A stretch of DNA of 36,747 nucleotides, taken from the NCBI GenBank assembly GCA_009694475.1, contig SHUX01000009.1, positions 1 to 36,747 of the forward strand, given 5' to 3'. Made by a program: the position numbers and the translations under genes. The stretch's first letter is position 1; the number at the start of each line of letters is the position of its first letter. Origin of the DNA: Thermoleophilia bacterium. Lineage in GTDB: Bacteria; Actinomycetota; Thermoleophilia; Gaiellales; F1-60-MAGs149. Shown in pieces: positions 3,769 through 34,196 of this stretch. The notes beneath the pieces are model-generated. The model saw only the letters and a list, made by a program, of their open reading frames with translations. It was not told the DNA's origin and did no database searches.

Positions 3769-5445
3769 TCAGCCGAGCAGGTGGAGGGCAGAAAGGGGAA
3801 CGGTAGCGACCGGCGGAGTATCAACGATCACGCCGTCGACGGAGACGGCGTGCGTCGTGGGATCGACGCGGACGGCAGCCGTCATTGTATTGCGAACCAT
3901 GTCTGCCGCGCCAAGTGTGCGAGTGCCACGCACGGCGACACACTGCTTGGCGGTCGGTAACAGGGCAGCCGCTCCCCCGTCAACCGCAGCCTGGCTTGTG
4001 AATGCGAGGCTCAGGCGCGCTGGCGCAGTACCAAGTGCACCGATCTGAGCCGCGATACGAGTTGGTTCGGAGAAGGCCGTTGACGCGTTCGGATCGCCGC
4101 TCATTCCCCAGGTCGGAAAACCAGCCTTCAGCACGAGGAACGGTTTGACGGCGAACCACGCCGGACTCCACAGCACGATGTCGGCCAATTTGCCGACTTC
4201 GAGTGACCCAACGTGGTCGGCCATACCATGCGCAATTGCCGGATTGATTGTCGCCTTAGCCAGATAACGCAACACTCGCTCGTTGTCGTGGCCGCTTGCG
4301 TCGCCTCCGCGTGCGTCGCGCATAACCGACGCGAGTTGAAAGGTCCGTCGGAGGGTCTCACCGATGCGGCCCATGCCCTGACTATCCGATGACGTCATGT
4401 GGATCAGACCGAGATCGTGCAGTACGTCCTCGGCGGCCATGGTGGCTGGGCGCACGCGATCAAGTGCGAGCTGGTGGTCCCCGGGTAGATCGTCCTGCAG
4501 GACATGAACAGCCTCGATCATGGCGGTGTGTTCGGCAGCCGTATTGATACCAAAGGGAAACGTTGGGTTGGTCGACGACGTCAGGATGTTGGGTTGTCCT
4601 GCAAGACGCAGCACGTCGGGCGCGTGACCGCCGCCAGTGCCCTCGATGTGGTACGCGTGGAGCGTTCGGCCGGCAACCAAGGCCAACGTATCCTCGACCG
4701 ATAGACACTCGTTGAGCCCGTCGGTGTGGACGCAGAGCTGTACATCGTGGTGATCGGCAACGCGGAGTGCCATCTCGAGCGCTGACGCGTGCGCGCCGAC
4801 GTCCTCGTGGATCTTGAGACCACCGGCACCGGCGCGCAACATTCGCTCCAGTGGCTCGGGGCGGCTTGACGAACCGCGGGTCAGCATCAGGGTATTGATT
4901 GGCGACTGGTCAAGGGCTGCGTAGATGTGCTGGAGGGCCCAGATCGGGTTGGTGCCGAGGTTCCAGACGGGGCCGTAGTCCTGAATCACCAGCGTCGTAA
5001 AGCCGGCGGCCAGCGCCTGCGGGATAATCTGTGGCGACAACAGGTGGACATGACTGTCGATCGCGCCCGCCGTCGCAATCAGCCCCTCGCCGGACACGAT
5101 TGCCGTGTCGGTGCCAAGCACCACCTCGACGCCGTCCATGATGTCCGGGTTGCCGGCGCGCCCGAGCGCGACGATCCGCCCACCGCTGATGCCAATCGTC
5201 GTTTTACGGACGCCAAGGATCGGATCAACCACCACGACCTGCGTGATTGCGATCTCCACCGCGGCGGTCGTAGCCTGGGCCATCAGACCATCCCGCGCGG
5301 TCTTAGCGAACCCGGCGAGCACCTCGTTGCCGCGCTCTTGGTCGTCGTGTTCCACCTCAACCCAAAGGTGTGTATCGCCAAGACGAATGCGATCGCCAGT
5401 GGTCGGACCGTAGACCCGTGCGTAGACGTCGGCGGGGAGTGTCAT
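3769..5445 (-). CDS. ureC: Urease alpha subunit (UreC)-like, divergent active-site flap
   Basis: 558 aa; YGPTTGDRIRLGDT, GAIDSHVHLLSPQ (His ligands), GLKIHEDVGA (carbamylated Lys), CVHTDGLNE, YHIEGTGGGHAPD and SSDSQGMGRIGE. The flap reads EAVHVLQDD instead of the usual MVCHHLD. Confidence 0.92.
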   Translation of the reverse strand: MTLPADVYARVYGPTTGDRIRLGDTHLWVEVEHDDQERGNEVLAGFAKTARDGLMAQATTAAVEIAITQVVVVDPILGVRKTTIGISGGRIVALGRAGNPDIMDGVEVVLGTDTAIVSGEGLIATAGAIDSHVHLLSPQIIPQALAAGFTTLVIQDYGPVWNLGTNPIWALQHIYAALDQSPINTLMLTRGSSSRPEPLERMLRAGAGGLKIHEDVGAHASALEMALRVADHHDVQLCVHTDGLNECLSVEDTLALVAGRTLHAYHIEGTGGGHAPDVLRLAGQPNILTSSTNPTFPFGINTAAEHTAMIEAVHVLQDDLPGDHQLALDRVRPATMAAEDVLHDLGLIHMTSSDSQGMGRIGETLRRTFQLASVMRDARGGDASGHDNERVLRYLAKATINPAIAHGMADHVGSLEVGKLADIVLWSPAWFAVKPFLVLKAGFPTWGMSGDPNASTAFSEPTRIAAQIGALGTAPARLSLAFTSQAAVDGGAAALLPTAKQCVAVRGTRTLGAADMVRNTMTAAVRVDPTTHAVSVDGVIVDTPPVATVPLSALHLLG

Positions 5446-6122
5446 GCATCAACCCCTAGGTAGCCGCGTTCACGCGCCAGCGCAAGCGCGGCGGGTAAGG
5501 CCTCGTGGGCGTCGAGCGGACCATTAACAAGGCCCGCGAAGCCGTAGACAATCCGCCGGCCAGCGAACGGGCGCAACGTAACGGTTTGGGTCTGCCCGGG
5601 CTCCCAGCGAACCGTGCTCCCCGTCGGGACCATCAGCCGCCGACCCCAGGCTGCCGCCCGCTCGAAGTCAAGTTGCCGGTTAGCCTCGAAGAAGTGCCAG
5701 TGTGACGTGACCGCTATTGGTACTGCTGCCCGGTTCGTGACCACGAGAGTGCTGGTCTCTGGCACGGCGAGCGGCTGGGTCGGACGCGTGCTGACTGCGC
5801 CAGGACCCGCAACCTCAGCGGGCCCCAACGGACCTGAGATCACAAGCAGGCGTGTCCCGTCCGAGAACAACGCCTCGACCTCGATGTGCTGAACGAGCGA
5901 CGCCGTGCCGGGCAGCACCTGATGGGAACCAAGAGTGGCTCTCCCGATTGCCACCGCCTCGGCATGGGTCGCACCATCGCGGGCGGCTTCGCAAACAGCG
6001 TCGGCGATCACGGCAATCGCCTCCGGTGCGTTGAGAAGCAGGCCCCGGGCCAGACGGCTACGGGCGAGTTCGGCGGCTTGGAAGACAAGCAGACGATCGA
6101 GTTCACGGGGCGTCAACTGCAT
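5442..6122 (-). CDS. Fused urease gamma/beta subunit (UreAB)
   Basis: 226 aa; N-terminal MQLTPRELDRLLVFQAAELARSRLARGLLLNAPEAIAVI is UreA-like; C-terminal VPIAVTSHWHFFEANRQLDFERAAAWGRRLMVPTGSTVRWEPGQTQTVTLRPF is UreB-like. ATGA overlap with ureC. Confidence 0.93.
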   Translation of the reverse strand: MQLTPRELDRLLVFQAAELARSRLARGLLLNAPEAIAVIADAVCEAARDGATHAEAVAIGRATLGSHQVLPGTASLVQHIEVEALFSDGTRLLVISGPLGPAEVAGPGAVSTRPTQPLAVPETSTLVVTNRAAVPIAVTSHWHFFEANRQLDFERAAAWGRRLMVPTGSTVRWEPGQTQTVTLRPFAGRRIVYGFAGLVNGPLDAHEALPAALALARERGYLGVDA

Positions 6123-11523: not shown

Positions 11524-12963
11524 ATGATGGCTACGCACCACTCCGCGTCCTACAGTTTGACGATTCGCGCGGTGATTCCGCACGAACCTGGGCAGTTCGC
11601 TCGTGTTGCCGCTGTGATCGGCGAGGCCGATGCGGTCCTCGGTGCGATTGATCTCGTACGCGTCGATACAGGGTCGGTCGTGCGCGACATCAGCGTGCTG
11701 TGTGCGAATGAGGAGCACGGCTACCGCGTCGTCGATGCGATCCGCGCCATCGATGGCATCCGCGTCGTCAATGTCTCGGACCGCACGTTCTTGATGCACA
11801 CGGGCGGCAAGATCGAGATGGCTCCCAAGGTGTCGATTCGCACCCGCGACGATCTTTCGATGGCCTATACCCCCGGCGTGGCACGCGTCTGTCAGGCGAT
11901 TGTCGACGAGCCGGAGATGGTCTGGAATCTCACGTCCAAGGGCAACACGATCGCTGTTGTCACCGACGGCACAGCCGTGCTCGGTCTAGGCAATATTGGG
12001 CCCGAAGCTGCGATGCCGGTGATGGAGGGGAAGGCGATGTTGTTCAAAGAGTTTGGAGGCGTTGACGCCTGGCCGATCTGTCTCGATACAACGGATCCTG
12101 ACGAGATTGTCTTGTGTGTCAAAGCCCTCGCCCCCGCCTTCGGAGGCATCAACCTTGAGGATATCGCCGCGCCGCGCTGCTTTGAGATCGAACGTCGCCT
12201 CCAGGCGGCACTTGATATTCCCGTCTTCCACGACGACCAACACGGCACCGCGATCACGGTGTTCGCTGCCCTTCGTAACGCTCTCCGCGTGGTTGGGAAG
12301 GAACTCGAGGAGGTTCGAATTGCCATTATCGGAACCGGTGCAGCCGGCACTGCCGTCACGGAAATGCTGCTGACTGGCGGGGCGACCCACATTATTGGCT
12401 GTGATATCGATGGCATCGTTCATCGCGATCGCCCCGGCCTCGACAGCACGCTTCTGGCCTACGCCGAGCGCACGAATCCGCTCGGCCTGACGGGTCAAGC
12501 GGCTGGGGCGGTAGCTGACGCGGACGTCGTGATTGGGCTCTCTCGGCCCGGCACAATTACCGTGGAGATGGTGCGGTCGATGGCCGCAAAGCCGATCGTC
12601 TTCGCGATGGCGAACCCGACGCCAGAAGTGCTGCCCGGCGAGGTCGAAGGCATTGTCGCCGTGATGGCCACAGGGCGTAGTGACTATCCGAATCAGATCA
12701 ACAACGTGCTGGCCTTCCCCGGTATCTTCCGTGGCGCACTCGATGTTCGGGCCCGAGAGATTACGTCGGGCATGAAGATCGCCGCCGCGAAAGCGATTGC
12801 CGACGTGATCACGACCGACGAACTCGCACCCGACTACATCGTGCCAAGCGTCTTCAATCGCAAGGTCGTCGAGAACGTCGCCCAGGCCGTCGCGGCCGCA
12901 GCGCGTTTGGACGGCGTCGCACGACGGCACGATGGCGACGAAACCGACGCTCCTGTCGGCTAA
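11524..12963 (+). CDS. NAD-dependent malic enzyme with N-terminal ACT domain
   Basis: 479 aa; ACT-like N-terminus (YSLTIRAVIPHEPGQFARVAAVIGEADAVLGAIDLV), then AYTPGVARVCQAI, VTDGTAVLGLGNIGPEAAMPVMEGKAMLFKEF and HDDQHGTAITV. Confidence 0.94.
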   Translation: MMATHHSASYSLTIRAVIPHEPGQFARVAAVIGEADAVLGAIDLVRVDTGSVVRDISVLCANEEHGYRVVDAIRAIDGIRVVNVSDRTFLMHTGGKIEMAPKVSIRTRDDLSMAYTPGVARVCQAIVDEPEMVWNLTSKGNTIAVVTDGTAVLGLGNIGPEAAMPVMEGKAMLFKEFGGVDAWPICLDTTDPDEIVLCVKALAPAFGGINLEDIAAPRCFEIERRLQAALDIPVFHDDQHGTAITVFAALRNALRVVGKELEEVRIAIIGTGAAGTAVTEMLLTGGATHIIGCDIDGIVHRDRPGLDSTLLAYAERTNPLGLTGQAAGAVADADVVIGLSRPGTITVEMVRSMAAKPIVFAMANPTPEVLPGEVEGIVAVMATGRSDYPNQINNVLAFPGIFRGALDVRAREITSGMKIAAAKAIADVITTDELAPDYIVPSVFNRKVVENVAQAVAAAARLDGVARRHDGDETDAPVG

Positions 12964-14567
12964 GAGGCGATCACGAGTCCAGAGGTTGTCCGCCTGACGA
13001 TTCCACCCGGACCCGAGATGGTGACCCGGCAGGCAACGGTCCTTCCGGCATCGACGGTGCGAGGAACAAACGTTGCAGCCGTTTGGTCTGCCAGTGCCTG
13101 ATCGTCCCGCAGCCATTGGCGCACCACGACGAAGGGGCGCGTACCCGACCAGTGGCCTAGATCGCAATGTAGCGTGGTGCCGACGGCGGCCGTCCCGCGC
13201 AGGTGCGGACGTCGGATCGCCACCGGAGGCGTTGCCACGCTCAGTTCGATTCGCTCGGTGGTGCTCGTGATGGCGCCGTCGAAGGTGGCGATGCGGAACT
13301 CGAGTTGTCGACCACGGGGCACGCCACTACGAGCGAAGGAGATGATCGTCGGCTCGCTAGCGGCCGGCGCGACTTGCCAGGGGGCCGCCTTGAACTTCAG
13401 GTCAGAGCCGCCCTCGATCCGCCACTGCACGTCAGTCGCGTGCGGGGCGAGCACGAACGTCGTCGTGACCTGCCGATAGGCCGACCAAACGGCCTCCACT
13501 GCTGTGACGAGGTTCGGTCCGGGGGTGGCCGTCTTGCTGGCGGCCGGTCCCTCACCGTTGATATTGAGGGCGCTGACGAGCACCGTCAATGGTGCACCAT
13601 TGACTAGCCCCGCTAAATCGAGTCGGCGGACTGTTCCTCCAACGTCAATTTGGTGGCCGGTTTCGGCGATGCGGATCCGGAAACCCGTTGGGTCTGTTGC
13701 CTCCACGCACGGCTTACTCGACTCCCAGTTGACGACCAACGAACCATCGTCCGTTGCCAAGGCGACGTCGGGTGCGCCGGGCAGGCCGATCGTGCTCTCG
13801 ATCCAACAGCGATTGTGGGCGGCCAGCGAGTAGACGCCGGGATAGTCGTTGAGCGCGCAGCCTGTACCCCACGAGACGACGCCAACCAAGATGCCGCTCG
13901 CGCCAGCACCACTGACGAGTGGACCACCACTATCCCCCGCACACGCATCCTTGTCTGGTAACGCAGCGCAGAACATGGCCGCCGTTGCAAAAGCCTTCGT
14001 GCCGTACGCCGTTGCGCAGGTGTCCGCCGGACTGACACGCACGGCCGTTTGTCGCAGCAGAGTGACGCCTGGACCGTAGGTATCGTCGCGCGAGGAGTAT
14101 GCGGTTGAGCCCCAGCCGGCCACGTGCAGCAGCGTGCCGACCGCCGGGGCCTTCGTTCCGGTCGCGATCGGGATCACGGGGGCCGTCGTTGCTGAGGTGA
14201 GATGCACGAGCATGAGGTCCGCGCGTGGTGCGCCCTTCACTGGCTGTCTATAGAGCGGGTGGCGAAGTTGGCGATCGACCATCAGCACTTGGCGATTGGG
14301 CGCAGCGAGATCTGTCGCGCCGGCTACCACTTGGACGGCAGAGGCGGAGTAGAGGCGGCAGTGTCCGGCGGTCAAGACCCATTGGGGCGCCACGACCGCG
14401 CCGCCACAGAACGACGAGCCGTGCTTGGTCTCCAGAGCGGCGACAAAACCCCAATCGGCAGCGGTAGCCTCCTGCCCGCCGACGATGCGGGGCGTTGCCG
14501 CCAGCGCGCTGCCGGTCAGCGCTGCGACGTAGAGGCAGAGCGTGAGCACGAGTCCGAAGCGCATCAA
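12960..14567 (-). CDS. Secreted trypsin-like (S1 family) serine protease with C-terminal Fn3-/Ig-like domains
   Basis: Signal peptide, RIVGGQEATAADWGF activation site, TAGHC, ADLMLVHL, DACAGDSGGPL catalytic motifs; C-terminal Fn3-like region and PHLRGTAAVGTTLHCDLGHWSGTRP...QWLRDDQ Ig-like module. Confidence 0.92.
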   Translation of the reverse strand: MMRFGLVLTLCLYVAALTGSALAATPRIVGGQEATAADWGFVAALETKHGSSFCGGAVVAPQWVLTAGHCRLYSASAVQVVAGATDLAAPNRQVLMVDRQLRHPLYRQPVKGAPRADLMLVHLTSATTAPVIPIATGTKAPAVGTLLHVAGWGSTAYSSRDDTYGPGVTLLRQTAVRVSPADTCATAYGTKAFATAAMFCAALPDKDACAGDSGGPLVSGAGASGILVGVVSWGTGCALNDYPGVYSLAAHNRCWIESTIGLPGAPDVALATDDGSLVVNWESSKPCVEATDPTGFRIRIAETGHQIDVGGTVRRLDLAGLVNGAPLTVLVSALNINGEGPAASKTATPGPNLVTAVEAVWSAYRQVTTTFVLAPHATDVQWRIEGGSDLKFKAAPWQVAPAASEPTIISFARSGVPRGRQLEFRIATFDGAITSTTERIELSVATPPVAIRRPHLRGTAAVGTTLHCDLGHWSGTRPFVVVRQWLRDDQALADQTAATFVPRTVDAGRTVACRVTISGPGGIVRRTTSGLVIAS

Positions 14568-26690: not shown

Positions 26691-27872
26691 ATGCTGCTTG
26701 CCCTGCTTCTGCCTCGTCTCGCGCTGAGCGTTGCGCTCGCTGCACAGCCACAGCCGCAGGACGTGCCGGTTGCGGTCGGCCCTCAGCCCTTTGGCGAGCC
26801 CCGCATTGGTCTGCCCTCGGCAATTGCCGAGGCCAGCGGTGTCCGCAGTGGCATGCGGCTTGGCGTGGCACTCACGCTCTGCCCCGAACTCGTGCTCGTG
26901 CCGCCCGACCCGGTCGGGGTGCAGTTGCGGGCGGCTCAACTAATCCGCGAGATAGCCGCAATGGGTCTCCCGGTTGAGGAAATCGGAAGCGGTCGTGCGC
27001 TGGTTGCTGCCGAGCCCGGCCTGCGCCTCTATGGCGGACCCCAACGACTCCTCCAACGCCTGCACGATGTTGCCCCCGACGAGGCGCTCCAGATTGGCGC
27101 GGCACCCTCGCGGTTTTCCGCCCTGATGGCGGCCCGACTGGCGCGTCATCGACCACGCATCTTCGGGCACGACGATGTACAGGAGATGATCGCGCCATTG
27201 TCCGTTGTCCTGCTTCACGAGGATGGCGGTACACCGGCAGAGATCTGTGAGGCGCTGAACCTAGTTGGCATCGATCGGCTTGGTGGGCTGGCGTCGCTCA
27301 ATCGGCTGGCAGTCCGTGATCGCTTTGGCCCAGAGGGCGTACGTGCCTGGCAGATGGCGCGAGGTGAGGACGGTGATGCGATTACCCCAAACAAGCCCCC
27401 ACCACTGCTCCGCGCCGAGCTTGTTCCGGGCGAGCCGATCGCCACCGACCACGCCCTCGAACAGGCCATCGACCTGCTCCTGACGCGTCTCCTCAAAGAC
27501 CCTACGCGCGGGACGGCCGAGCCGCGCCTCCTGCGATTGCAGGCGTACCTAGTCACGGGCGAGTCCTGGATCTGTGAGGCACCCTTACGCGAGCCGTGCG
27601 GCAACCAGCAGCGGCTGTTCTTAGCGCTCTTACCGAAGGCGCGCCGGCTACCCGCCCCCGCCGAACGAATCGCGATCAGCTTTGCCGAGCTGGCCCCAGG
27701 TGCTCACCAGCTGGCACTACTCGACCCGGCTGGCGTCGAGCGCGAGCAGCGCCTTGACGGTGCAGCGGCACAGGTTCGCTCGGCGCTTGGCGCAGCCGCC
27801 CTACTCCGCGTCGTCACGCTCGATCCGACCAGCCGCCTGCCCGAGCGACGCTACGGGTTGACTGCCCGATGA
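26691..27872 (+). CDS. imuB: ImuB-like (catalytically degenerate) Y-family DNA polymerase protein
   Basis: 393 aa; RIGLPSAIAEASGVRSGMRLGVALTLCPELVLVPPDP, IGAAPSRFSALMAARLA, LNRLAVRDRFGPEGVRAWQMARGED; lacks Y-family metal-binding acidic residues at the N-terminus; followed by dnaE2. Confidence 0.85.
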   Translation: MLLALLLPRLALSVALAAQPQPQDVPVAVGPQPFGEPRIGLPSAIAEASGVRSGMRLGVALTLCPELVLVPPDPVGVQLRAAQLIREIAAMGLPVEEIGSGRALVAAEPGLRLYGGPQRLLQRLHDVAPDEALQIGAAPSRFSALMAARLARHRPRIFGHDDVQEMIAPLSVVLLHEDGGTPAEICEALNLVGIDRLGGLASLNRLAVRDRFGPEGVRAWQMARGEDGDAITPNKPPPLLRAELVPGEPIATDHALEQAIDLLLTRLLKDPTRGTAEPRLLRLQAYLVTGESWICEAPLREPCGNQQRLFLALLPKARRLPAPAERIAISFAELAPGAHQLALLDPAGVEREQRLDGAAAQVRSALGAAALLRVVTLDPTSRLPERRYGLTAR

Positions 27873-28123
27873 GCGAACTCCTACGGGGGCTCGCCTCACA
27901 GACACCGAAACGCTGTCGCGTCACACTCGACGAGCGGCAGTACCCGACCAGCGTGGATGGGCGAGAGGTCGTTTGCTTGCGCGAGGAGTGGCGGGTGGAA
28001 GAGGGCTGGTGGAGCACCCCCTACCGGCGACGCTACCTCTCTGTGACACTCGCTGACGGACAGCTGCAGACGATCTTCGAGGATCGCCGCCAGCCCGGCC
28101 AGTGGTGGCGCCATGGGCGCTAG
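27869..28123 (+). CDS. Small protein (84 aa) between imuB and dnaE2; possibly DUF6504-like
   Basis: MSELLRGLASQTPKRCRVTLDERQYPTSVDGREVVCLREEWRVEEGWWSTPYRRRYLSVTLADGQLQTIFEDRRQPGQWWRHGR; ATGA overlap with imuB and 11-bp overlap with dnaE2. Family name from memory, not searched. Confidence 0.75.
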   Translation: MSELLRGLASQTPKRCRVTLDERQYPTSVDGREVVCLREEWRVEEGWWSTPYRRRYLSVTLADGQLQTIFEDRRQPGQWWRHGR

Positions 28124-31100
28124 CACGGCGTACGTCGAACTGCACTGCCACTCAGCCTATTCCTTTCTTGACGGGGTCGCTCAGCCCGACGAGTTGGTCG
28201 ATCGCGCCTGTGCGCTTGGCTACGCCGCACTGGCTTTGACGGACCACGACAACCTCTGTGCTGCGCTGCCGTTCGCCCAGGCGGCACAGGCGGCGGGGCT
28301 ACAGGCCATCACCGGCTGCGAATTGACCGTTAAGGATGCCGGCCAGGTCTTCCACCTCGTGCTGCTTACCGAGACGCGGGCGGGCTACACGAACCTCTGT
28401 CGGTTGATCACCGCCGCCCACGCCGGCACGCGACGAGTAGACGGCACGACTGAACACCAGCCGAGCATCGCTCTACAGCACGTCTTGGAACACGCCGAGG
28501 GGCTCACCTGTCTGACCGGCTGTTCACGGCAGGGAGTATTGGCTGCAGGCGACGACTCGACTGTACGCCGTCGCCGCGACCTGCTGTTGGAGGCCTTCTC
28601 GACGCGGCTCGCAATCGAATTACAGCGTCCGTTTCATGAGGGTGCCGAGCCTGCGCTACGTCGCCTCTGTCGATTGGCGCACGAGCGTCAGATTCCCCTC
28701 GTTGCAACCAACAACGTGCACCTCCACCTGCGTCGACGCGGCCCGCTGCAAGACGTGCTGGTGGCAATCCGGCATCACCTCGCACTTGATGCCTGCAGGA
28801 GTGCTCTGCGCGGCAATCGTGAGCACGTGCTCAAGTCTCCGGCCGAGATGACACGACTCTTCGCCGAGCTACCCGAGGCAATAGTCGAGACCGGTCAGAT
28901 TGCCGAGCGCTGCCAATTTGACCTGACCGAGAGCCTTGGCTATCAGCCGCCAGTACGACCGGGCAACGCCGATCACGAGCTTGCTGACTTTTGTCGAACA
29001 CACCTCGACAGTCGCTACAACCGATCCTCGCCCTGGCGCCAGCAGGCAGAAGAGCGGCTGGAAACCGAGCTCGCACTGATTCGGCACCATCGGCTCGCAG
29101 GCTTCTTTCTACTGCATCAAGAGATTCTCGAGCTCGCACGCGACGTCGCCCTAGAACTGCGGGGAAGCGATGCCGCACGCAACGTCTTGCCACCTGGCCG
29201 CGGGCGCGGGTCGAGCGTTGGCTCAATCGTCTGCTACCTGACGGGTCTCTCGCATATTGATCCTGTCGCTGGCCGACTCTCACTCGGGCGGTTTCTCAAC
29301 GAAGAACTAGCCTCGACGCCCGATATTGATCTGGACTTTCCGCGTGATATCCGGGCCGAACTGATCCGTCGGATTCACCTGCGCTTTGGTCCACAGCAGG
29401 CGGCCTTGGTTGGTGCCTTCTCGACGTATCGCACACGTGGTGCAATCCGCGAGATCGGTAAGGCGCTGGCATTGCCAACAGGCGACATCGCCCGGCTCGC
29501 TGCCGCCTCCGATAGCTGGCGTGCCGAGTCGGTTGGTGACGAGCTGCGTCGCGTACCTAGTCTGCGCGATCGCGCTAACGACCCACGCCTACGACTGCTC
29601 GTAGCACTCTGTCGTCAAATCAATGGCCTGCCGCGCCATCTCTCGCAGCACCCCGGCGGCATGATTGTCTCGGACCGACCACTCAGTGAATTGGTGCCAT
29701 TGCAACCCGCGGCAATGGCGGGACGCACGATCTGCCAATGGGACAAGGACGCCTGTGCCGATGCCGGCTTTCTCAAGATCGACCTGCTCGGACTCGGCAT
29801 GCTCAGCGCCGTCGAACGCTGCGTCAGCGAGATCCACCGCAGCACCGGCAAGACGGTCGACCTCTCGCGCGTGCCCCTCGACGATGCCGAGGTCTATGCC
29901 GAGATCCAAGACGCAGATACAGTCGGGGTCTTCCAAATCGAATCACGCGCGCAGATGCAGACGTTACTGCGTGTCCAGCCGACCTGCCTTGACGACCTCG
30001 TCGTCGAGGTCGCACTCGTTCGACCAGGGCCGATTCAAGGTGGCGCAGTCAATCCCTACATTCAGCGACGACTGGCGCGGCGGGCTGACCCAACGGTGCC
30101 GATTCCCTACGAGCATCCCCTGCTCGAGGAAGCGCTGCATGAGACGCTCGGCGTAATCATCTTTCAAGACCAGGTGCTGACGGTCGCGCAGGCCTTGGCA
30201 GGCTTTACGCCAGGCCAGGCGGAGGCGTTGCGGCGCGCAATGAGTCGCCGTCGTAGTCGCGCGGCAATCGAGGCGCAATGGCTGGCCTTCGCTGAGGGAG
30301 CGTCCGAGCGTGGTGTGGCTGAGCACATTGCCCAACGTGTCTTCCAGCAGATTATTGCCTTCTCGGCCTTTGGCTTTCCAAAATCCCATGCCGCAGCCTT
30401 CGCTCTGCTCGCCTATCAGACTGCGTGGCTACGCCACCACTACCCCGCCGCTTTCCTCTGCGCCCTCCTGATGGAGCAGCCAATGGGCTTCTATCCACCC
30501 GCCACATTGATCCGCGACGCCGAGCACCGTGCAGTAACAGTGCGACAGGTCGACCTTGAGCATTCACGGGTAGAGGCCAGTTGTGAAGGCCCGTCGGCAG
30601 TGCGGCTGGGCTTTCGTCAGGTGATCGGGCTCGGTGCGAGGGATGCCGAGAAGCTCGTCGCAGAACGCCATGCGCGCGGACCTTTTCGCACGGTTGGCGA
30701 ACTCGCCAATCGTCTCGATCTGCCGACCACACAACTACAGCGACTAATTGCGGCGGGAGCCTGTGACCGCCTCGGCCCGCGCCGGCAATTGCTCTGGGAA
30801 CTCGGCCTGGCAACGCGACCACAGACCAGTTCTACTGGGCGACAGTTGGCTTTCGATCTGCAACTCGGTGAGGTACCACAGACGCTGCCCGTGCCGAATG
30901 CCTGGGAACTCTTGGTGGCCGACTACGCCACGACGGGTGTCTCGGTACGGGAGCACCCGATCGCCCAGCTTCGTCTGGGGCTCCACGACGTTATCAGCAG
31001 TGCACAACTTAAACAGTTGCCGGACGGAACGCCAATCACAATTCCCGGGTTGGCAGTGGCGCGCCAACGCCCCAGCAGCGCCAAAGGCATCGTGTTCCTC

Positions 31101-31364
31101 CTCGCCGAGGACGAGTACGGGCTCTTCAACCTGGTGATTATGCCCACTGTCTACGACAAGTACCGACTACTCGTGCGCAGTGAGCCCCTGCTACTGGTGG
31201 AAGGTACACTCGAGCAGCGCGATCGCCAACTCAACATTCGCGTCACGCACCTCAGCGCGCTCGGCACGCCCGAGCGCCAAGTGCTTCGCCAGCAGCAGGG
31301 CACGACGCTACGCGCTGTCGCGCCAGCACCGCAACACTTCTCACAGGGCCGCCGCCGTGCTTAG
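28113..31364 (+). CDS. dnaE2: Error-prone DNA polymerase III alpha subunit DnaE2
   Basis: 1083 aa; PHP domain VELHCHSAYSFLDGVAQPDELV, polymerase motif TPDIDLDFPRDIRAELI, GVFQIESRAQMQ, VEVALVRPGPIQGGAVNPYI; cassette with imuB. Confidence 0.94.
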   Translation: MGASTAYVELHCHSAYSFLDGVAQPDELVDRACALGYAALALTDHDNLCAALPFAQAAQAAGLQAITGCELTVKDAGQVFHLVLLTETRAGYTNLCRLITAAHAGTRRVDGTTEHQPSIALQHVLEHAEGLTCLTGCSRQGVLAAGDDSTVRRRRDLLLEAFSTRLAIELQRPFHEGAEPALRRLCRLAHERQIPLVATNNVHLHLRRRGPLQDVLVAIRHHLALDACRSALRGNREHVLKSPAEMTRLFAELPEAIVETGQIAERCQFDLTESLGYQPPVRPGNADHELADFCRTHLDSRYNRSSPWRQQAEERLETELALIRHHRLAGFFLLHQEILELARDVALELRGSDAARNVLPPGRGRGSSVGSIVCYLTGLSHIDPVAGRLSLGRFLNEELASTPDIDLDFPRDIRAELIRRIHLRFGPQQAALVGAFSTYRTRGAIREIGKALALPTGDIARLAAASDSWRAESVGDELRRVPSLRDRANDPRLRLLVALCRQINGLPRHLSQHPGGMIVSDRPLSELVPLQPAAMAGRTICQWDKDACADAGFLKIDLLGLGMLSAVERCVSEIHRSTGKTVDLSRVPLDDAEVYAEIQDADTVGVFQIESRAQMQTLLRVQPTCLDDLVVEVALVRPGPIQGGAVNPYIQRRLARRADPTVPIPYEHPLLEEALHETLGVIIFQDQVLTVAQALAGFTPGQAEALRRAMSRRRSRAAIEAQWLAFAEGASERGVAEHIAQRVFQQIIAFSAFGFPKSHAAAFALLAYQTAWLRHHYPAAFLCALLMEQPMGFYPPATLIRDAEHRAVTVRQVDLEHSRVEASCEGPSAVRLGFRQVIGLGARDAEKLVAERHARGPFRTVGELANRLDLPTTQLQRLIAAGACDRLGPRRQLLWELGLATRPQTSSTGRQLAFDLQLGEVPQTLPVPNAWELLVADYATTGVSVREHPIAQLRLGLHDVISSAQLKQLPDGTPITIPGLAVARQRPSSAKGIVFLLAEDEYGLFNLVIMPTVYDKYRLLVRSEPLLLVEGTLEQRDRQLNIRVTHLSALGTPERQVLRQQQGTTLRAVAPAPQHFSQGRRRA

Positions 31365-31376
31365 CGCTAGCGCGGG

Positions 31377-33041
31377 CTACGCACCGCGGTAGACCAAGAC
31401 CGGCATACCGATCTCGGTGAAGGCGTACACGACAGCCGCATCGACAGCCGGGACTCGGACGCAGCCGTGAGAGGCCGCATACTCGGGCACATATGGATAC
31501 TCGTGCAACGCAAAACCCTCAAAGAAATACGAGGCATAGGGCAAGAAGGCCTTGAAGGGCTTCGACCAACTCAGCAGCTCCTTGCGCTGCACCGTGAAAG
31601 CACCCGTTGGTGTGTTGCCGGTCGCGCCGCTGGAGATATGAATCACACGCTCTACAACACCCCCCTTCCGAACCAGCATGAGGACCTGTCGGTCGATGTC
31701 GATCTCGACGTGTGCAGGCAGGCCTGGCTGCCGGGCGACTGGTAGCTCGGCGCGCATCAGCAGCGCGAGCGTCTCTGCGCCAGTGACCCCGGAGCGCTCC
31801 GCGCCGAGCGCGCCCTGGAAACCGACGACTGCCTGCCACGTCGTGTCGTCGTACATACCGTTGACGAACTTCGGCTGCAGATAGTGGAGGCGGGCGAGCG
31901 TCGTCTGGAGGGCGCGTACTCCCGGACCCTGGTCACCGGGTTGGAAACCGCCGGGAAACTCCGACGCGGGGTTGCGACCGGCCTGGGCGCGGAACCCGAT
32001 CGCTAAATACCCCGTGGCGATCGAGCGACCCCACGGGGTCAGCTTTTTGCGACCCTCTGCCATGGCGTCGCGCGTCGGCGTATCCCACCCCGCGATGACC
32101 GCGCCGTCGCCGCCGTCAAGTACGGTCCAACCCGTCACCCAGTCCAGTAGCCCCTCCGCCCAGCGCATGGAGTCGGTCGTCGTGCGCGTCTCTCGGTATA
32201 ACCGTCCGAACGATGTCGGCCCTGATCGTTTAACACTGAACGTGGTCTGCACGCGCGCGACGTCGTCGAACACCACGGGTACCACGTCCGTCGCGGCAGC
32301 GAGCGACGTACGCAGGATCTTCTGATTCGTGCGCTTGAACCGGAATTGCCCGTCGGAACGAGGATGCACGCCATAGATGAGGTTGTCGTCTCCAAGCGCC
32401 GCCGTCCAATTGAGCGCGACGGAGCGCGAGCGCTCTGGCAGATTGATCATGATCGGCGTCGTAACTCCTGCCGCGCGCAACGCCGCGACGTTGAGCGACT
32501 GCGACCAGATCCAGGCCTCTGTGTCGCCGCATTTCAGGCTGGCGGTAAACCTGCCGCAGTCCGGATCCACCGCCGGCAGATACCAGACGTTGTCTTTGTC
32601 AGGGAACCAACCTGCGAGCGTCGTGAGCCATGGAGACTGATCTCCGACGGTGACCGGAACGTTGGCAAGAAGCAGAATCAAGCCGCGTGATTTTGCAACA
32701 CGCTGGAGTTTCTGAAACGCACGGCGATGCGCGTCGTCGTTCGCCGCGCTGGAAACGTTGACTCGAACGACGTTCGCACCGAGACGCGCAATCTGCTTGA
32801 ACGCATTGGGCGCCGAACTGATATCGGGAGCCCCTAGCGGAGTTACAGCGTCATTGGGCACGAAACGGGTCCCACCCCAGGCCACACCGCGCACCTTCAT
32901 CTCGTGATCCGTGGCATTGAGGATTCGATTACCCGAAACCTGCGCGGGCCGGGCCTGCGCAACAGCGACCATGCCCATCAGCGCGGTAAGCGCAAGCAGA
33001 ATGGTCGCCGTGGGTCTGACCAGCGAGGAAATCGCCAACAC
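31377..33041 (-). CDS. Secreted/anchored three-domain protein: GH5-like (probably non-catalytic) TIM-barrel + peptidoglycan-binding domain + YkuD L,D-transpeptidase
   Basis: 554 aa, N-terminal hydrophobic signal; KVRGVAWGGTRF...IARLGANVVRVNVS...LRAAGVTTPIMINLPE...DDNLIYGVHP (GH5-like layout); QPGDQGPGVRALQTTLARLHYL...FVNGMYDDTTWQAVVGFQ (PG-binding); VEIDIDRQVLMLV...SGATGNTPTGAFTV...FALHEYPYVPEYAASHGCVRVP (YkuD). Confidence 0.88.
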   Translation of the reverse strand: MLAISSLVRPTATILLALTALMGMVAVAQARPAQVSGNRILNATDHEMKVRGVAWGGTRFVPNDAVTPLGAPDISSAPNAFKQIARLGANVVRVNVSSAANDDAHRRAFQKLQRVAKSRGLILLLANVPVTVGDQSPWLTTLAGWFPDKDNVWYLPAVDPDCGRFTASLKCGDTEAWIWSQSLNVAALRAAGVTTPIMINLPERSRSVALNWTAALGDDNLIYGVHPRSDGQFRFKRTNQKILRTSLAAATDVVPVVFDDVARVQTTFSVKRSGPTSFGRLYRETRTTTDSMRWAEGLLDWVTGWTVLDGGDGAVIAGWDTPTRDAMAEGRKKLTPWGRSIATGYLAIGFRAQAGRNPASEFPGGFQPGDQGPGVRALQTTLARLHYLQPKFVNGMYDDTTWQAVVGFQGALGAERSGVTGAETLALLMRAELPVARQPGLPAHVEIDIDRQVLMLVRKGGVVERVIHISSGATGNTPTGAFTVQRKELLSWSKPFKAFLPYASYFFEGFALHEYPYVPEYAASHGCVRVPAVDAAVVYAFTEIGMPVLVYRGA

Positions 33042-33095
33042 GTCATGAGATTCGATCTCCGCATGCTGTCTCCTGCCTGAGGCTATTCTTTGCTG

Positions 33096-34196
33096 GTGAA
33101 AAGCTCTATCGCGATCCTTGCTGCCGTCTTAAGTTTGATCGGTGCTGTGGACGGTGCCGGCGCAGCTGCCCTCGGTGTGACCGCAGACGGCGGCCTTAGC
33201 GCGGGACAGGCCACAAGCAACGCCGCTGCAGCAACCGCACTCCATCTGACGTGGTCCCGCGTTGACGTCTCCTGGCCCGTCGTAGCACCGACACAACCCA
33301 ATAACGCGCGTCTCCCAACCAGCGGCGGGTACGTCTGGTCGAGCATCGACACTCAACTCGCGGCTGCAGCGTCGCTGGGTCCCGGCACACAGGTGCTTTT
33401 CTCAGTCAGCGGAACGCCGTACTGGGCGCGTGCGGACAACGGCGCAGGCGGTTTGCCGGACGACTCATCGTGGACTCCTAGGCGCACTGCGTGGCAGAAT
33501 TTTATTGCGGCTCTGGCGACGCGCTACAACGGAAGATTCGCCGCACTCGAGGTCTGGCCACAGCCGAACCTGCTGACGTCCTTGCGCCCGCAACGAATCG
33601 CAGGCCGCCTCGTGGCGCCCGGCTTTCTTAAGGTGTTGACAAAACGTGCGACGCTCGAAGTCCGCAAACTGTCTGCGACCGTACCGATCGTCACCGGCGG
33701 CCTCGCCCGTACAGATCCCACCAGCACCTCCGACACCCCGTCGCTGACGTTTTTGCGCGCGATGGGAAGAACGCGCATGGCGTTTGATGCGATCGGACTA
33801 CGTCTCGTTCCGCCGAACGGCCTCGAGGGACTGAGCGATCCCACGAATCTTTCGCTGACCGACTCAGCCGGCATTGTCGCCGCGGTCGATAGTTATTGGC
33901 CGAACGCGGGCACGAGAATTTGGCTGACCGGCTACGGCGTACTCTCGGGACCAGCAGAAGCCGGCTTGAGTTACGCCACACAGAGCGTTGGCATCACCAG
34001 TCTGCTGTCGGCCAGCGCGAACCCGCGCATCGACGTCGCGCTCTGGAATAGCCTCGCGAATACGACTGCCAATCCCTACGGCGGCATTTTGTTGGCGCCC
34101 ACGGTCAACCCCTTTGTTGCCCCAACCGCAGGCGCCGATCCTGCCTGGGATACCTGGACGACGATCGTGCCAGTTCCGGCAACGCCCCCGGCCTAG
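33096..34196 (+). CDS. Secreted glycoside-hydrolase-fold protein (GH5/GH39-like), predicted catalytically inactive
   Basis: Signal peptide; TWSRVDVSWPVVAPT, AALATRYNGRFAALEVWPQPNL (position of the NEP motif), GTRIWLTGYGVLSGP (position of the TE.G motif). GTG start 33096; the ORF track begins with TTG at 33090. Confidence 0.75.
   Translation: MKSSIAILAAVLSLIGAVDGAGAAALGVTADGGLSAGQATSNAAAATALHLTWSRVDVSWPVVAPTQPNNARLPTSGGYVWSSIDTQLAAAASLGPGTQVLFSVSGTPYWARADNGAGGLPDDSSWTPRRTAWQNFIAALATRYNGRFAALEVWPQPNLLTSLRPQRIAGRLVAPGFLKVLTKRATLEVRKLSATVPIVTGGLARTDPTSTSDTPSLTFLRAMGRTRMAFDAIGLRLVPPNGLEGLSDPTNLSLTDSAGIVAAVDSYWPNAGTRIWLTGYGVLSGPAEAGLSYATQSVGITSLLSASANPRIDVALWNSLANTTANPYGGILLAPTVNPFVAPTAGADPAWDTWTTIVPVPATPPA

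Follow-up and report, generated by a model that had tools for sequence, protein, structure and literature searches.

A putative wall L,D-transpeptidase with an N-terminal GH5-derived barrel that has lost its catalytic glutamates in freshwater Thermoleophilia

One gene of the window analyzed here (the whole stretch of DNA, 36,747 nucleotides), denoted P0001, probably encodes a secreted wall L,D-transpeptidase that is positioned by a non-catalytic, glycan-binding GH5 barrel. The parts of this protein are known, and their combination (GH5–PGBD–YkuD) appears to be new. An earlier note on this DNA had proposed the joining of a barrel, a PG_binding_1 module, and a YkuD domain in one secreted protein, which is confirmed by Pfam and by profile and structure comparisons, and the open reading frame, its coordinates, and its motifs are all as given there, with NVWYLPAVDP at residues 151–160 (32562–32591), and VPVVFDDVA at residues 254–262 (32256–32282). 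The leader of P0001, read by eye, contains a hydrophobic stretch and an AxA-type site, with possible cleavage between VAQA and RPA, and this hydrophobic leader suggests that the protein is secreted.

Table 1. Position of P0001, its predicted modules and key residues, and the divergent neighbor P0002 in the window.
Feature	Position	Strand	Basis
P0001, pseudo-GH5 / PG_binding_1 / YkuD L,D-transpeptidase (putative)	31377..33041	-	554-aa ORF
Probable Sec signal peptide and mature start, residues 1-33	32943..33041	-	Read from sequence
Predicted GH5-derived barrel, residues 34-356 (about)	31974..32942	-	hhalign, Foldseek, end-to-end alignment with L134/L135
PG_binding_1, residues 371-428	31758..31931	-	Pfam PF01471, 4e-9
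YkuD, residues 443-551	31389..31715	-	Pfam PF03734 3.6e-14; PDB 4lpq_A 3e-20
D159-P160, acid/base Glu position of NEP	32562..32567	-	Alignment with L134/L135, residue counts
C162 to C171, invariant Cys pair past strand 4	32529..32558	-	13/13 orthologs
D259-D260, strand-7 G-E position	32262..32267	-	hhalign, alignment, residue counts
L,D-transpeptidase active site H513...S524-H525-G526-C527-V-R529	31455..31505	-	Ortholog counts
Gap between the two divergent annotated starts, 48 bp	33042..33089	.	ORF coordinates
P0002, secreted GH39-like barrel, 368 aa, inactive by motif	33090..34196	+	Ortholog profile, motif counts

The two C-terminal modules are recognized by Pfam (PG_binding_1 at 37 bits, against a cut-off of 23, and YkuD at 54 bits over residues 443–550, against a cut-off of 23.4), and no Pfam domain is assigned to the N-terminal half. 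Single-sequence searches of this half against Pfam, NCBIfam, and the PDB gave nothing usable, the best matches being models of pyruvate kinase and GcpE/IspG, which were rejected at values of 0.006–0.3, far under the cut-offs. The relationship with GH5 is thus visible only when a profile of the orthologs is used. A profile of the 13 orthologous N-terminal halves matched the GH5 mannanase 1bqc among the PDB sequences (E 0.0015), and the hhalign comparison of the 13-ortholog barrel profile with ten GH5s of the class reached 98.5% (E 1.9e-14), in a match that spans the barrel. Foldseek searches with both AlphaFold models, of the full length and of the barrel, returned mostly GH5 entries (best E 1.2e-8 and 3.2e-10, respectively), with a probability of 1.00 and a TM of about 0.5, strand 8 being poorly modeled; the mean pLDDT was 52 for the full-length model and 63 for the barrel, with mostly good confidence in strands 1–7 and poor confidence in strand 8 and the YkuD half. 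In a barrel-only alignment, the region also aligns end to end with L134 and L135, two GH5s from this class in which both glutamates are retained. Together, the profile–profile comparison, the predicted structures, and the alignment indicate that the barrel of P0001 is derived from GH5, and is of the (beta/alpha)8 type. This bears out the GH5-like barrel of the earlier note, given that the profile comparison, which could have revealed an N-terminal region of some other kind, recovered a GH5 barrel without intact catalytic glutamates.

A class-wide search with the barrel profile recovered only five marginal matches outside the genus (E 0.002–0.009). Two of these are GH5 enzymes according to Pfam (L045 and L047), and two others look like GH5 by sequence (L048 and L049, the latter a fragment only), while the fifth (L046) was rejected as a GH5 relative, its matching ORF reading as a signaling protein. 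The placement of individual motifs depended on the alignment used. Strands 6–8 were misplaced both in the full-length alignment and when MAFFT aligned the barrel to more distant GH5s, a problem that was solved by the barrel-only alignment with L134 and L135. In the HMMER match to 1bqc, the NEP was shifted by a few residues, with MAFFT and hhalign concurring on D159.

In this alignment, the NVIFDLYNEP of the two GH5s is matched by NVWYLPAVDP, which places D159 at the acid/base glutamate and V158 at the asparagine of NEP, and PVVTGE is matched by PVVFDD, which places D260 at the nucleophile. Similarly, the pairing of FHLY with VHPR identifies H226 as the strand-6 histidine, with the loss of the strand-6 tyrosine, and no counterpart in the barrel was found in the same alignment for the strand-3 histidine (LDLH) of L134 and L135. 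Among the 13 orthologs, the acid/base motif is always V/T-D-P, with D159 invariant and position 158 occupied by V in nine and T in four, and the nucleophile position 260 is D in nine, N in three, and S in one. The reading that both GH5 catalytic glutamates are lost or changed to aspartate is therefore upheld, with an invariant aspartate at the acid/base and no conserved residue at the nucleophile. Sixteen GH5 proteins of the class, including L128 from the same genome, show both the NEP and the strand-7 glutamate; having been selected by demanding both motifs, they indicate that intact GH5s are common in the class, rather than that all are intact.

A barrel that is still catalytic through an altered mechanism, with D159 as the acid/base together with D259 or D260, for example, or substrate assistance, might trim a glycan before cross-linking. 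Both D159 and D259 are carboxylates found in every ortholog, lying at a catalytic position or beside one, and D259 (13/13 orthologs) occupies a site which is mostly Gly in the GH5s aligned. However, four of the 13 orthologs have N or S at the nucleophile position, and the asparagine before the acid/base, the strand-3 histidine, and the strand-6 tyrosine have also gone. In retaining glycosidases, the replacement of Glu by Asp usually eliminates most of the activity. Altered catalysis is thus considered improbable.

The residues that the barrel has kept point to a cleft that may still bind sugar. The barrel retains the Arg of strand 2 (R93, 12/12 orthologs), the His of strand 6 (H226, 13/13), and the Trp of strand 8 (W305, 13/13), and the cleft residues R93, W55, W153, Y154, N200, H226, and W305 are all invariant, including the aromatic W153–Y154 pair, which sits where strand 4 ends. 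Invariant residues are enriched only modestly at the predicted cleft rim, with 20 observed against 14 expected, and 26 of 323 circular shifts reaching as high a count, so the barrel may have been kept for its fold or for contacts with other proteins. It might then serve as a protein–protein or spacer module without any recognition of sugar, which either sets the distance of the transpeptidase or has P0002 or another envelope protein as its binding partner. By eye, the PGBD–YkuD relatives from the same order seem to bear Ig-like regions at this point, and such regions often act as spacers. The invariance of R93, H226, W305, and the W153–Y154 pair goes beyond the needs of a pure spacer, however, and this interpretation is judged unlikely, though it stays a serious rival, given the modest enrichment.

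Two further features of the barrel were observed. The invariant cysteine pair C162–C171 may possibly form a disulfide, and a beta-hairpin insertion is predicted just past strand 7, at residues 264–289 (about 32175–32252), which is not present in L134 or L135, and could act as a cover over the cleft.

Orthologs of P0001 are found in all 13 genomes of its genus, a group of freshwater Thermoleophilia MAGs (lake-dwelling actinobacteria), and are either full-length or cut by the contig in all 12 of the others, with identities of 51–71%, and two copies truncated by contig ends. The barrel, with pairwise dN/dS values of 0.12–0.29, is under purifying selection throughout the genus, and the mean pairwise identity is 62% in the barrel, 61% in the PGBD, and 66% in YkuD. 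These orthologs refute the notion of a decaying pseudogene, or of a sequencing or assembly error that fused two genes. All of the sequence comes from MAGs, but the same fusion recurs in separate assemblies, with intact reading frames, this level of divergence, and dN/dS well below 1, so that an artifact of this type is scarcely conceivable. A recognizable GH5 gene is present in just eight of the 13 genomes, in comparison with the fused inactive barrel in all 13, although the MAGs are incomplete. No homolog of the barrel was found at E<=0.001 in 386 other genomes of the class and 396 of the phylum (about 780 in all, in sampled sets that partly overlap), and a scan of a collection of 84,980 species, which was pattern-based and would miss distant homologs, recovered only loci of the P0001 kind, from lake and other actinobacterial MAGs.

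The gene order PgsA–FHA–MerR–Apt–GNAT–P0002<>P0001–DnaE–ImuB-like is common to the 13 loci, as far as the contigs reach. Three loci (L052, L053, and L063) come from public MAGs titled Bifidobacterium breve, and contain the genes of this genus with the gene order seen in the remaining MAGs, so these organism names look wrong. L052 and L053 belong to a single MAG (CAMAWJ01), in which the locus is present twice, in divergent versions, also visible as two matches in G005; this is probably due to mixed binning and not to duplication.

Elsewhere in the window, Pfam identifies an ImuB-like (IMS) gene and, after it, a gene for a DnaE-type polymerase (26691–31364, + strand), a pair that is convergent with P0001 and resembles a mycobacterial-style mutasome cassette. 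A single ORF fusing the urease gamma and beta subunits is followed by the alpha subunit (3769–6122, - strand; Pfam), and a reading by eye of the larger neighboring ORFs recognized no urease accessory genes. At 12960–14567 (- strand), a secreted serine protease of the trypsin type (Pfam Trypsin 3e-45) has a long additional region at its C-terminal end.

In the transpeptidase half, the active site that had been described as intact is indeed so, with the catalytic His and the (S/T)xGCxR motif present, and H513, S524, H525, C527, and R529 invariant, in the 12/12 orthologs that extend that far. The HG(S/T) of YkuD is replaced by HE(Y/F) in P0001, as in some relatives from the same order. With about four YkuD genes per genome, P0001 is one of several, and the bulk of the cross-linking may be conducted by the other three or so.

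The divergent neighbor, P0002, which the earlier note had overlooked, appears to encode a second inactive barrel of clan GH-A. Pfam found nothing above chance in this protein, and the ortholog-profile search recovered relatives in 176 of 249 genomes of the class. Of 11 relatives, ten keep WNEPN (WSEPN in the other), and eight keep the nucleophile motif WxTE, with WLTQ in one, and no WxTE-type motif matched by pattern in the other two. A paralog in the same genome (L107; match 7e-35) keeps WNEPN and WVTEFG. In P0002 itself, by contrast, these motifs are WPQPN and WLTGYG, and P0002 and its 11 orthologs all have WPxPN and WxTGY (WxTDY in one), without the GH39-type catalytic motifs in 12/12. The GH39-like proteins of the Thermoleophilia and PslG (4zn2, a marginal match at 0.05) share a barrel family with P0002, but in the 12 P0002 orthologs WNEPN has become WPxPN and WxTE has become WxT(G/D). 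With the motif losses in P0001 added, this makes two distinct clan GH-A barrels that have been disarmed in one divergent pair. The 48-bp gap may possibly be a shared promoter region, and a promoter scan found no sigma-70-like match in it. P0002 adjoins P0001 in every locus that spans the gap, although this is weak evidence of a functional link, given that the whole neighborhood is syntenic within the genus.

In the proposed role of P0001, the usual PG_binding_1–YkuD pair would have gained, on its N-terminal side, a GH5 barrel without cleaving activity, in which the sugar cleft would persist as a lectin-like binding site for a polysaccharide of the wall or capsule. The PG_binding_1 module would anchor the protein on the sacculus, the barrel would dock the transpeptidase at the bound polysaccharide, and Cys527 of YkuD would form an acyl-enzyme, leading to local cross-linking; YkuD may act either as a 3-3 cross-linker, or by joining a ligand that bears an amine to the stem peptide. 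P0002 may participate in the same envelope process, and possibly act on the same glycan. A tentative extension, which is possible but rather doubtful, is that the two genes form one envelope system, with two clan GH-A glycosidases, disarmed independently of each other, serving as glycan readers; one of them would be part of an L,D-transpeptidase, so that a particular polysaccharide would direct the cross-linking of the wall. If the proposed role is correct, the use of a former glycosidase as a docking module would tie cross-linking to a specific glycan, and would provide a testable case of a glycosidase turned lectin within a wall-building enzyme.

The accessory domains of the L,D-transpeptidases listed in a review include LysM, PG4, and endolysin-type domains, with LysM, PG4, and other peptidoglycan-binding domains tethering these enzymes to peptidoglycan in general, and no mention of glycoside hydrolases (PMC12729407). 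The architecture of P0001, which had been suspected to be uncharacterized, was found neither elsewhere in the genomes searched nor in the open literature searched, with the InterPro architectures and the subscription literature lying outside this search. The C-terminal half resembles the actinobacterial PG_binding_1–YkuD L,D-transpeptidases 4lpq and 5bmq (4lpq over residues 358–548), with the same kind of His ... SHGCVR motif, but these proteins have no GH barrel, and in the PGBD–YkuD relatives read from the same order, the extra N-terminal part either looks Ig-like by eye or is absent. The N-terminal half shares with the GH5 glycosidases (L134, L135; PDB 1ece, 8fc0, 1bqc, and 3jug) the predicted barrel fold, the N-terminal G-x-R-I-x-D...RGVxW entry, and the three conserved strand-2, strand-6, and strand-8 residues, and differs from them in the catalytic motifs and in the lost His and Tyr. 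The inactive GH18 chi-lectins (YKL-40 type) also have a sugar-binding glycosidase barrel whose catalytic acid is gone. While they belong to another GH family, occur in animals, and lack a transpeptidase, they may offer a lead to the mechanism by which the barrel of P0001 would act.
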